Shown in pieces: positions 9,120 to 64,000 of a stretch of DNA of 64,000 nt. A program made the translations under genes and the position numbers. Position 1 is the first letter of the stretch, and every line of letters begins with the position of its first letter. Source of the stretch: Tenrec ecaudatus (Eukaryota; Chordata; Mammalia; Afrosoricida; Tenrecidae); contig NC_134537.1 in NCBI RefSeq assembly GCF_050624435.1, forward strand, positions 122,129,586-122,193,585, given 5' to 3'. Under the pieces are notes generated by a model, which ran no database searches, had not been told where the DNA came from, and saw only the letters and a list, made by a program, of their open reading frames with translations.

Positions 9120-9998
9120 CCTTTCCTGCCTCGTTCTTGGCGGCGGTGGTGTTTGCTAGTGGCCCACGAGTGGGTTCTGACTGCTAGCACAACCAACACC
9201 ATCCTCACCATTGCTGGTGTGTTTGAACCCATTGTTGCAGCCATTGTGTTACTCCATCTCATCCAGGTCCTCCCTCTTTCTCCCTGTCCCTCCGCTTTAC
9301 TGAGTATGATGTCCCCTTTCAGGGACTGTCTCTCCTGATAACATGTTCCAAGTAAGTGAGACAAAGTCTCACCATCCTCGCTTCTCAGGACTCTGGCTGT
9401 GCTTCTTCCCAGACAGATGTTTTGCTTCTTTGACAGCCCACGGCGCTTTCGACATTCTTCACCTCCCTCCCACTTCAACTCGATTGATTCTTCTCTGGTT
9501 TTCCTCATTCGATGCCCAATTTTCACACACATATGAGGCCATGGCTTTGTTCAGACGCACCTTAGTGCTCAAAGTAACATGCTTGCTTTTTAAGACTTTA
9601 AAGCGGTCTTATGCAACATACTTACCTAATGCAATATGCTGTTTGGCCTTTTGACTACTGCTTCCAGGAGCATGTGTTGTGGGTCCCAGCAAGATGAAAG
9701 CCTTGAAAACATCTGTCTCTGTTTATCATGTTACCTGCTGGTCCAATGGTAAGGATTTGGGTGTTCTTTACATTGAGTTGTAATCTATACTGAAAGCTTC
9801 AATGTTTGATTTTCATCAGTTAGTGCTTCAAGTCCTCCTCAGTTTCAGCAAGCCAGATTTTGTCATCTTCATTTCCCAGGTTTTTAATAAGCTTTCCTCT
9901 ATGCCACATTCTTCTTCACATAGTCCAGCACAGTATACAGGTCCAATAAGTGTGGCAGATGGATACAACCAAGATGCACACCCTTCTTGGTTTTAAAC
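9120..9998 (-). mobile_element. RTE-clade LINE, 3' part, antisense
   Basis: Antisense copy of the RTE element that recurs in the window. Landmarks in order are 'cccattgttgcagccattgt', 'gatgtcccctttcagggact', 'ctcaggactctggctgtgct', 'ctaatgcaatatgctgtttg' and 'cagttagtgcttcaagtcct'. On the minus strand this corresponds to the region after the reverse-transcriptase active site through to near the 3' end. The reading frame is broken, so only short open pieces remain. Confidence 0.85.
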
Positions 9999-9999
9999 T

Positions 10000-10420
10000 A
10001 TGCAAATTTTCCTTGATGGGTTTGCACAATTGCCTTGGTAGCCATTAATAAACTTTGAGCTATACAATTTTACCTAATCTAAGTGTTTTATATAAATGAG
10101 AGTATATACCACATTTTATTTATCCATTCGTCTGTTGATGGCTCTTGAGACTGTTTCCACCGTTTGGCCATTGTTCCTTAGCTACACTGAGCACAGGTGT
10201 GTGCGTTTCTGCTTGTATGCTTTCACGTCTCGTAGGTGTACACCTGGACTGAGGTTTCTGGATCACATGGTAGTTCTGTGTTTAACTTTTTGAGACACTA
10301 CAAATTTTTTTTCCACAGTACTGTACTATTTCACATTCCCATAAGTAATGGACAAAGTTCCTAATTTCTTCATATTCTCACCAATATTTGTTGCCTTTCA
10401 TTTACTTTTGTCTTATTCGT
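10000..10420 (-). mobile_element. old L1, ORF2 C-terminal region, antisense
   Basis: Antisense old L1: 'tttatccattcgtctgttga', 'ctggatcacatggtagttct', 'cacattcccataagtaatgg'. With the plus-strand ORF2 piece that follows at 10440 it has the order expected of a 5'-inverted insertion on the minus strand. Confidence 0.75.
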
Positions 10421-19121: not shown

Positions 19122-20095
19122 CATCAGCTAATTGATGGAATATCAATAGAAATGTTTCAAGAAGCTGATGAGGCACTAGAATTACTTACTTATCTATGCC
19201 AGGTAATTTGGAAGATAGCTACTTGTCCAACTCATTGGAAGAGATCCATATTTGTACCCATTTCAAAGAAAGGTGACCCAAAAGAATGCTCAAATTATAG
19301 AATAATGTAATTGATATCACATGCAAGTAAAATTTTGCTGAAGATCATCTGACAATGGTTGTAGCAATTTATTGATAATTTGCTGCCAGGAGTTCAGATT
19401 CAGAAGAGGAGTTGGAACAGAGGATTTCATTGTTGATGTCATATGGATCTGGCTTAAATATCAGAAAGACTTTTAGTTGTGTTTCATTGAATATGTCAAG
19501 CCATTCATCTGTGTATATAATAACGAACTATGGATAGCCTTGAGAAGAATGGGAATTCCAGAACTCTTTATTGTGCTCATGCAGGACCTGTACATGGATG
19601 AAGGGGTAGTTGTGGCACAGCACAAAGGAAGCTTGCATGGTCTAAAATCAGGAAGGGTGTGCATCAGGGTAGTATCCTTTCTCCACATTTATCCAATCTG
19701 TATACTGATCAAATATCAGGGCCGCTGGATTATATGAAGAAGAGTATGGCATCAGGATCAGAGGAAGGCTTACTAACAATCTGAGAAATGCAGATGACAC
19801 AATCTTGCTAGCTGAAAAGTGAAGGGAACTTGAAGCACCTACTGATGAAGACCAAGGATTTCAGCCGTCACTATGGATAACAACTCACTGTAAAGAAGAC
19901 CAAGTTCCTCACGACTTGATGATCAGGTAACATCATGATTAACGGAGAAAAGGTTGAAGTTGTCAAAGATTTTATTTAGCTTGGATTCACAATCAATGCT
20001 CACTGAAGACAATGGGTGCACAAGCAAATGTGGAGAAGAAAATTGAGAAGAAACATTGTCCTCAGGGCTTGTTGAGTCAGGATGTGCTTCACTCT
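19122..20095 (+). pseudogene. RTE-clade LINE, reverse-transcriptase region, inactivated
   Basis: This encodes remnants of the RTE reverse transcriptase, which copies element RNA at the target site. Visible in order: 'MFQEADEALELLTYLCQ' (19150), 'WKRSIFVPISKKGDPKECSN' (19230), then after a frame break 'CFIEYVKPF' (19480) and 'ALRRMGIPELF' (19540), and 'LRNADDTILLAE' (19781). The catalytic YADD box has become NADD at 19787-19798, and the first active-site motif has lost its aspartate (FIE instead of FID). Frameshifts and stops also break the frame. It ends facing an antisense RTE copy. Confidence 0.85.
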
Positions 20096-33203: not shown

Positions 33204-33364
33204 AATTGATATAGCTATGTGTCTATATAATTGAGATAGCTATGTGTCTATATATAATTGAGATAGCTATGTGTCTCTATATAATTGAGATAGCTATGTG
33301 TCTATATATAATTGAGATAGCTATGTATCTATATATAATTGAGATGGCTATGTGTCTATATATT
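33204..33364. repeat. 27-bp minisatellite, about 6 units
   Basis: The unit 'gatagctatgtgtctata' plus 'tataattga' is repeated with lengths of 25-27 bp. Length changes are in the TA dinucleotides. One unit has 'gtatct' and the last has 'gatggct'. Confidence 0.9.
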
Positions 33365-41032: not shown

Positions 41033-41605
41033 CCCACAGTGTACTCATCACAGTGAAACATTTTCTTAAGCATATAGTCATGTAGGAACTAGTGTTCTCA
41101 TCAGCCTTTTTATTAAAGAGTAAATTTTACTCAACCAGGAGATGATAAAGGAGACCATGGCTAAAGGATCTGCAGTAATCCTTAAATATTTGTGAAAATA
41201 AACCTCCAACAAGTCTGACTTATAAAGCAAAGCCATGAGATAAGTACAACAGGCACGTCTGAAATGAACATGCTGCGAAAGATTTGACCGTGCAAGGATA
41301 CCGAAATGTCTACTCAAACCACAGAACCAGACCTGGTGCCCCTGGGGATTCTGCCTCGTGGCCACCCAGGTGTGACAGAGTAGAACTGCTGCTTCAGAAT
41401 GCCTCATCTGTCGTCTTGTGAAAACTCACCTTAGCCTTCTCCTCTTGCCCTTCCATCCTGCTGCACAGTCTCCTTTGGGTTAAAAGATGAGCACAGACCA
41501 TTTGAATCACTCAGGGGGATGAGCACAGACCATTTGAATCACTCAGGGACTCAGTCTGTCTGCGAGGCATTACAGACCAAGAGACTTGGGAGCACCAGTT
41601 TATTG
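41033..41605. other. unrecognised, with a small tandem duplication
   Basis: A 32-bp block starting 'atgagcacagaccatttgaa' is repeated directly at 41487 and 41519 with almost no differences, so it is recent. 41335-41395 resembles a SINE scrap ('gtgacagagtagaactgctg'). Confidence 0.6.
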
Positions 41606-49594: not shown

Positions 49595-50025
49595 CATTGT
49601 AGCAGTACATTGACAGGGAGCTGTCAGAGGCTCAGACAGATTCGGAAGAGGATGTGGAACAAGTGATATCATTGCTGACGTCAGACGGATCTTGACTGAC
49701 AGCAGAGAACACCAGAAAGATGTTACTTGTGTGTCATTGACTAGTGTGCACAAAGAACAAGGAGATACTGCATGGTTTAAAATCTGGAAAGGTGTGTGTC
49801 AGGGTTGTATCCCCTCACCACATCTGCTCAATCTGTATGCTGAGCAAATCTTCAGTGAAGCTGGATTGAAGAAGAAGAGGGTGGCCGATTCAGAAGAGGA
49901 TGTGGAACAGGGGATGTCATTGCTGATGGGAGGATAGCACAGGGCCATGCAGTGTTTCGTTCCATTGTGCACAGAGTCACCATGGGTAGGAGCCAACTTG
50001 ATGGCATAGAACAACAACAATAGTC
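49595..50025 (+). mobile_element. RTE-clade LINE, 3' (sense) part
   Basis: 'cagtacattgacagggagct' (RTE 'QYIDREL'), 'gaggatgtggaacaagtgat', 'tctggaaaggtgtgtgtcag' and 'aatctgtatgctgagcaaat'. An internal deletion follows to the 3' tail 'gccaacttgatggcatagaa' with 'caacaacaa'. Together with 49055-49580 it is one 5'-inverted element. Confidence 0.88.
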
Positions 50026-62530: not shown

Positions 62531-62717
62531 TCCCCCCAGAAAGTCATGTGATAATTATGAATAAAAGTAATACATAATTATTCTGTAATTAATGGTTGGT
62601 CAAGAGGATTTTATTTTCCATTGTAATCCATACTGAAGGCTACAATCTTTTATCCTCATCCGTAAGTGCTTCAAGCTGTCTTCACTTTCAACCACCAAGG
62701 CTATGTCATCTGCATGT

Positions 62718-62862
62718 CTAACAGAACCACCACCACCACCACACAAAACAGCTCACAGCGACCCTAGAGGACAGGTAAGACTTCCCCTGTGGGTTCCTGA
62801 GACAGTCTTCAGGGGGATCGAAAGTCTCATCTTAACCCTGTGGAGCAGCTGCAGCCCAATGC
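62718..62862 (-). repeat. AfroSINE-type SINE, partial
   Basis: 'cagctcacagcgaccctaga', 'ggacaggtaagacttcccct', 'cctgagacagtcttcagggg'. Antisense. It ends just before RTE sequence resumes at 'ccttcctccagccttgatgc'. Confidence 0.75.
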
Positions 62863-62876
62863 CTTCCTCCAGCCTT

Positions 62877-63602
62877 GATGCCACATTCCCCATCCTAGAT
62901 GCCACATTCCCTATCCTAGATGCCACATTCCCCATCCTAGATGCCACATTCCCTATCCTAGGTGCCACATTCCCTATCCTAGAGCCCATATTCCCTATCC
63001 TAGAGCCCACATTCCCTATCCGAGAGCCCACATTCCCCATCCTAGATGCCACATTCCCTATCCTAGATGGCACATTCCCCATCCTAGATGCCACACTCCC
63101 TATCCTAGATGCCATATTCCCCATCCTAGATGCCACATTCCCCATCCTAGATGCCACATTCCCTATCCTAGGTGCCACATTCCCTATCCTAGATGCCACA
63201 TTCCCTATCCTAGAGCCCACATTCCCTATCCTAGAGCCCACATTCCCTATCCTAGATGCCACATTCCCTATCCTAGAGCCCACCTTCCCTATTCTAGAGC
63301 CCACATTCCCTATCCTAGAGCCCACATTCCCTAACCTAGATGCCACATTCCCTATCCTAGAGCCCACATTCCCTATCCTAGAGCCCACATTCCCTATCCT
63401 AGAGCCCACATTCCCTATCCTAGAGCCCACATTCCCTATCCTAGAGCCCACATTCCCTATCCTAGAGCCCACATTCCCTATCCTAGAGCCCACATTCCCT
63501 ATCCTAGAGCCCACATTCCCTATCCTAGATGCCACATTCCCTATCCTAGAGCCCACATTCCCTATCCTAGAGCCCACATTCCCCATCCTAAAGCCTACAT
63601 TC
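62877..63602. repeat. 21-bp minisatellite, 34 exact-length units, open on both strands
   Basis: Starting at 62877, 34 consecutive 21-bp units run without a single indel to 63590, followed by a partial unit. Two main variants exist: gatgccacattccctatccta (DATFPIL in the plus frame) and gagcccacattccctatccta (EPTFPIL). The gat type dominates the left half and the gag type the right, including eight gag units in a row at 63360-63527. Because 21 is divisible by 3 and the unit lacks stops, one plus frame (328 codons, 62703-63689) and one minus frame (277 codons, 62753-63586) stay open. The unit derives from RTE sequence. I do not call either frame a gene. Confidence 0.95.
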
Positions 63603-64000
63603 TCGGATTATCTGCTCAGCGTTCAGATTGAACAAATAAGGGGCAAAGAAACAACCTGGCAAACACATCTCCTGATTTTAAACCAATAGTATCCCCTAGG
63701 TATGTTAGAACAACTGCCTCTTGGTTTGTATGCAGGTTCCACATGAAATGTTCCATTACACAATTAGGGATTTGGGAATTTCTATTCTTTGAAATGTTAC
63801 CCATAGTTTGTTATGATCCACCCAGTTGAATACCTTGGCATAATCATAAAATACAAGGAAATGACTTTTTGGTATTCTCTGCTTTCAGCTAAGATCCATC
63901 TGACATCAACAATGACATACCTTGTTCCACATCCTCTTCTGAACCTGGTTTACATTTCTTGTAGCTCCCTGTTTTAACGTATCTTCAGCAGATTTTTACT

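Follow-up and report, generated by a model that had tools for sequence, protein, structure and literature searches.

A human survey attributes 7,276 of 31,472 minisatellites and satellites to transposable elements, places 5,747 of the 5,932 clusters of such element-derived repeats at a single locus each, and puts their growth down to local duplication (PMC3389668). For Alu arrays, the same survey gives means of 2.30–2.42 units, with slightly more units in older subfamilies, and describes one 17-unit AluJo array (PMC3389668). Models of minisatellite birth invoke slippage, either between direct repeats of short length or at noncontiguous repeats (Haber and Louis 1998; Taylor and Breden 2000, as described in PMC3389668). 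Such births are usually hidden because in most cases the starting sequence is not known. At the locus described here, sister copies in the window (the whole 64-kb stretch of DNA that was analysed) supply the starting sequence, and direct comparison with them allows the individual steps to be proposed: from 22 to 21 bp, then whole-unit growth by a net 33. The array is worth keeping on record because the unexpanded sequence, a unit of founder length and the grown array share one window.

Like the human element-derived minisatellites, the array has grown within an old retrotransposon copy, and it is a tandem array of units in the 10–100 bp range lying within a transposable element. It belongs to the element-derived minisatellites and, as these are counted by the thousand in the human genome, is a new case of a known kind (PMC3389668). 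Its host, in contrast to those of the human survey, is RTE-like (the term RTE is absent from its main text, that of the survey), and its 34 units are many compared with the Alu means of 2.30–2.42 given there (PMC3389668). Among the literature matches listed, titles and the beginnings of abstracts gave no RTE minisatellite of this kind, although absence from print is not claimed. As a case of tandem-repeat birth, the array is ordinary, though unusually easy to read: with high probability, it grew in place in a decayed RTE-like reverse transcriptase (RT) gene from the gene's own 22-bp stretch before the YADD box, likely by slipped-strand copying or unequal exchange.

Tandem Repeats Finder reported the array at 62881–63602 with a period of 21, 34.4 copies, 92% matches and 0% indels. 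A core of 19 bases, with up to three mismatches allowed, matched 34 times on the two strands of the 64-kb window, always inside the array and at a spacing of 21 bp; elsewhere in the window it had no match on either strand, and 100 shuffles gave none. Both results bear out the 34-unit, 21-bp minisatellite of the preliminary description, although this unit number comes from one assembly and may reflect that assembly. The edges given there were less exact. The array is real, but when its units are begun at TTC, a founder-like 22-bp unit precedes the 34 units of 21 bp, RTE sequence follows directly, and the edges fall at 62864 and 63599 (Table 1). The array units are of two main variants, the TG type and the GC type. 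A comparison of the window with Rfam yielded nothing at gathering score, and the two matches to solved structures (E = 0.7 and 0.89) were not meaningful.

Table 1. Coordinates of the array, its host element and the related copies in the window
Feature	Position	Strand	Basis or remark
34 tandem units, each exactly 21 bp	62886..63599	-	Tandem Repeats Finder, unit tables, pattern scan, RTE alignment
Outermost left unit, 22 bp, length equal to the RTE paralog sequence	62864..62885	-	Likely founder left in place
Last unit, diverged, adjoining the RTE junction	63579..63599	-	Alignment
Right flank, decayed RTE-like RT, ends ...NLNAEQIIRE at the array and runs off the window	63600..64000	-	RVT_1, proteins, paralogs
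Left flank, RTE-like RT continuing with RHADDIALVVESEDSLKHL, YADD box reads HADD	62610..62719	-	RVT_1
RTE paralog c19, unexpanded site (30 bp)	19395..19883	+	Site region ~19600-19800
RTE paralog c97, unexpanded site (30 bp), deletion after the site	9778..10080	-	Site region ~9850-10080
Insertion with (CCA)n end, between array and YADD box	62720..62863	-	Strand and edges by eye, approximate
Run of 8 identical consecutive GC-type units	63354..63521	.	Local homogenisation

The host element, which we take to be an RTE/BovB LINE, was recognised by an RT profile and by its paralogs in the window rather than by a repeat library. With stops read as X, the right flank aligned with positions 52–139 of Pfam RVT_1 (E = 1.5e-4, 22 bits against a cut-off of 29.6), and the left piece, from GSVRHADDIALVVESEDSLKHL on, with positions 150–183 (E = 0.062, 13.4 bits). 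Both scores lie under the Pfam curated cut-off, as is expected because the copy is decayed. The two pieces are colinear across the array and leave about ten profile positions for it. That RTE resumes to the right of the array had been proposed from the outset and agrees with these alignments, in which RT-like sequence is found on the left as well. Among the four translations searched against Pfam, right-flank frame 0 and a frame of c19 were without a match, and right-flank frame 2 additionally matched TMC (0.028) and a zinc finger (1.9), both weakly. When the right flank was used as the query of a protein search, 12 proteins (P0001–P0012) were returned, all 12 of which carry RVT_1. As judged by eye, five of them (P0002, P0003, P0007, P0008 and P0009) read through the array site, and all five have xGL or xRL seven residues before xGI (xGS in P0003); the other seven stop short of the site or differ in text there. 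When the 12 proteins were compared by tblastn with the short left flank, no match was found. At the nucleotide level, the left flank and paralog c19 share 78 identities with 21 mismatches, and the YADD-box position, HADD in the array copy, reads NADD in c19 and YADD in the relatives P0003 and P0008. The host resembles RTE/BovB LINE RT in having colinear RT sequence on both sides of the array. It differs in that the copy is dead, with stops and frame changes in the flanks and 33 stops in the array's RT frame, and in that an element has been inserted before the YADD box.

This insertion splits the RT gene, is absent from the RTE paralogs c19 and c97, and carries two copies of CCCTGTGG; it is presumably SINE-like. 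A search of 62560–62880 for direct repeats of at least 8 bases, a length below which repeats would be missed, gave no target-site duplication, as the one pair found lies entirely inside the insertion. The preliminary description had placed the array just before the YADD box, which is right as to the RT-coding position but overlooks the insertion between array and box.

Several other RTE-like stretches occur in the 64-kb window, two of which, c19 and c97, cover the site of the array. In both, an interval of 30 bp opens with (G/T)ATGCC and closes with CCAGC. Its right anchor is diverged in c19 and, in c97, deleted or followed by a deletion; two other copies, c49 and c15, are the basis for placing TTC after AGC at this anchor. 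In the array copy, the interval that begins with GATGCC and ends just before TTCTCGG measures 723 bp, exactly 30 + 33 × 21. Therefore, 33 whole units were gained and, net, no other base. Paralog c97 also contains ATGCCACATTC, as does the array. Another RTE copy, at 49600–49960, carries RT text to AGLKKK and then, as seen by eye, jumps to other RTE-like text (SEEDVEQGMSLL), and so looks internally rearranged or deleted.

The units themselves were compared with the unexpanded sequence, using a combined RTE 22-mer made of the left part from c19 and CACA from c97. Over its whole length, the TG unit aligned with this combined 22-mer at 20 identical bases out of 21 and with three 1-base indels, and none of 5,000 shuffles scored as well. 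This gapped alignment displaced a first, ungapped reading of the unit (15/21 matches to one paralog phase). Both the GC-type unit and the 22-bp outermost left unit (score 14.0) likewise exceeded all 5,000 shuffles when compared with the combined 22-mer, although the 13 unit/stretch comparisons made with 5,000 shuffles were chosen after the sequence had been seen and are uncorrected for this choice. Against single paralogs, the shuffles as good, out of 2,000, numbered 43 (c19) and 9 (c97) for the TG unit, 670 and 206 for the GC unit, 289 and 21 for the first unit taken in 21-base phase, and 10 and 695 for the last unit. The last unit is identical to the GC-type unit at 18 of 21 positions and to the paralog 21-mer at the same place at 12 of 21. 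Across the window, 9 of 620 other stretches scored as high with the TG unit as did c19. Together, the lengths of the unexpanded paralogs, with their 33 × 21 arithmetic, and the full-length TG-unit alignment support the central claim, already made in the preliminary description, that RT-coding RTE-like DNA was amplified in place.

In the phase of Tandem Repeats Finder, the left 17 units comprise 12 of TG type and 5 of GC type, and the right 17 comprise 3 of TG type and 14 of GC type. The types are clustered (permutation p = 0.0048 for runs and 0.0025 for the difference between halves), but the halves are mixed and not segregated as the preliminary description had stated. Eight consecutive GC-type units are identical, a run equalled in only 27 of 20,000 shuffles of unit order. 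Units differ from one another by 9.5% on average, or by 5.1% when the two variant positions are left out, whereas 21–23% of aligned bases differ between the flanks and c19. This indicates that the array is younger than the element's insertion or has been homogenised. A block of three units is repeated at units 2–4 and 12–14 of the 33 inner units; its length is within chance (3,588 of 5,000 shuffles), and higher-order structure was rejected on this ground. The rare unit within the block has the same pair of units to its left on each occasion (658 of 20,000 shuffles), which as a sign of higher-order structure is only suggestive. Two similar seven-unit runs, at 62913–63059 and 63123–63269, lie ten units apart, with the first three units identical and two of the seven differing; they possibly reflect a multi-unit duplication inside the array, for which the signal is weak by shuffling.

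What made this stretch prone to duplication may be its resemblance to the neighbouring RTE sequence. Successive stretches in the paralogs begin with TTCCTC, TTCTTC and TTCTCT, at distances of 22 and 21 bp, and the 22-bp stretch is thus bounded by TTCCTC and TTCTTC, which are alike at 5 of 6 bases. These boundaries and the founder-length unit left at one edge would fit the model of birth by slippage between direct repeats. The noncontiguous-repeat model, as summarised in PMC3389668, predicts a shortened terminal unit, whereas the odd edge unit here is 1 bp longer. For the self-similarity of the triplet of stretches, the paralog string was equalled by 0 of 3,000 shuffles and 5 of 2,500 window triplets, and the string built with the window's own outer units by 29 of 3,000 and 58 of 2,500. 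Pairwise, the three TTC-led stretches were matched by 131, 4 and 238 of 5,000 shuffles, and an ungapped offset scan of c19 did not single out offset 21 (score 4, with other offsets up to 8). With these tests in conflict, seeding of the array by a 21/22-bp self-similarity of the element is plausible at most.

The two unit types may be related to the same pattern. In a comparison with the 21 bp of RTE that come next, the GC type scored 5.0 (28 of 5,000 shuffles as good) and the TG type 3.0 (270 of 5,000); a likeness to the third stretch, which begins TTCTCT, was seen for the TG unit as well (5 of 5,000). GC types are commoner on the side of the array that faces the next 21-bp stretch, with 14 of 17 units on the right and 5 of 17 on the left (p = 0.0025). 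These comparisons hint that GC-type units may carry something of the neighbouring 21-bp stretch. Read in the RT frame, the GC type gives ECGL*DR and the TG type ECGI*DR, and ECGL and ECGI might correspond to GL and GI in the RT proteins, a likeness that is suggestive only. Taken further, the RT gene of RTE/BovB elements would contain, just before YADD, a built-in seven-residue echo (xGLxxxx / xGI, 21 bp apart) that acts as a standing minisatellite seed, with repeated births in many RTE copies and with the GL-coding and GI-coding unit types descending from its two halves. We regard this extended version as a long shot. If other RTE copies have arrays at the same place, the seeding feature becomes testable on many natural replicates in one genome.

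The comparison of array and paralogs suggests a model in which an early copy of the 22-bp RTE stretch lost one base net, after which the 21-bp copy would have been duplicated in whole units by slipped-strand copying or unequal exchange. Later rounds would have homogenised the right part and given rise to the run of eight identical units. More tentatively, the TTC-led stretches 21–22 bp apart in the RT gene may have provided the first misalignment, and the neighbouring 21-bp stretch may have left traces in the GC-type units. The model requires no function, and the peptide frames would be by-products of a period divisible by three.

Other origins of the array were weighed against growth in place. 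An independent satellite or minisatellite family might have been inserted into the RTE copy, and the GC-type unit, which taken alone is not clearly RTE-like against single paralogs, could be read in this way. However, the core has no copy elsewhere in the 64 kb, the exact 33 × 21 length relation leaves the RTE bases without net loss, and RTE at this very place can be aligned with the whole of the TG-type unit, which together make an inserted family highly improbable. Alternatively, expansion could have taken place in a source element or in the course of retrotransposition, the array then being copied to this locus; the human survey does suggest that initiation of tandem repeats can accompany retrotransposition (PMC3389668). 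Yet neither c19 nor c97, the two in-window copies covering the site, has an array, and the units resemble one another more closely than the flanks resemble c19. This points to growth after insertion, but homogenisation could produce the same pattern. We therefore consider expansion before or at insertion improbable. With regard to the force behind the growth, a G-quadruplex on the minus strand might have driven it, as the change to the GC type gives each unit a second GGG run and it is the GC-type part that has been homogenised. GGG runs in 62871–63605 number 52 on the minus strand and 0 on the plus strand, and motif starts with loops of up to 10 are more frequent in the right half (21) than in the left (5). 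In contrast, motifs with loops of 7 or less are absent, and in yeast it is G-quadruplex minisatellites with pyrimidine loops of at most 3 nt that are more prone to instability, in a study that also stresses that non-canonical G-quadruplexes count (PMC5491262). As the loops are too long, growth driven in this manner was rejected as very unlikely.

The array could also be coding or constrained in length, with one of its long open frames translated and selection keeping whole 7-codon units. Indeed, stop-to-stop frames of 350 aa on the plus strand (62637–63689) and 284 aa on the minus strand (62753–63607) are present, as the preliminary description had stated, and 34 units in a row are without indels. 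It had taken these two features as a sign of recent homogenisation or constraint, but both are expected by chance and neither calls for constraint. Among random 21-mers placed in tandem, 96–98% are open on both strands (96.7% of 50,000 window 21-mers, 96.1% at 41% GC and 97.9% of unit shuffles), because 21 is divisible by three. The unit itself has three of six frames open, below the commonest simulated number of four, and over the array two frames are without a stop, one has a single stop and three have 28 to 33. The probability of seeing no indel is 0.17–0.40 for 11 events and 0.09–0.29 for 15 events, assuming an indel share of 8–15% and at least 11 substitution events. The variants give no sign of selection either. 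The 11 distinct variants, counted in the inner 33 units with the two differences between the unit types treated as separate variants, include 8 that change an amino acid in the long plus frame and 8 in the long minus frame, about as frequent as the 69% and 73% expected without selection; in the other open plus frame, 6 are changing, 4 silent and 1 a stop, against 70%, 26% and 4% expected. Moreover, the long open frames differ from the RT frame, which enters the array as ...NLNAEQIIRE, leaves it as IKAGGRH and has 33 stops within. Coding constraint was ruled out on the open-frame simulation, the variant classes and this interrupted RT frame, and is scarcely credible. The earlier preference for homogenisation over constraint is upheld.

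Three further tandem repeats were observed in the window. A second minisatellite, at 33204–33363, has a 27-bp unit in 6.0 copies (94% matches), and a 32-bp tandem duplication at 41486–41548 has 2.0 copies with 100% matches. At 1893–2018, a 63-bp unit is present in two copies with 98% matches, a young duplication inside sequence that by eye is SINE-like.
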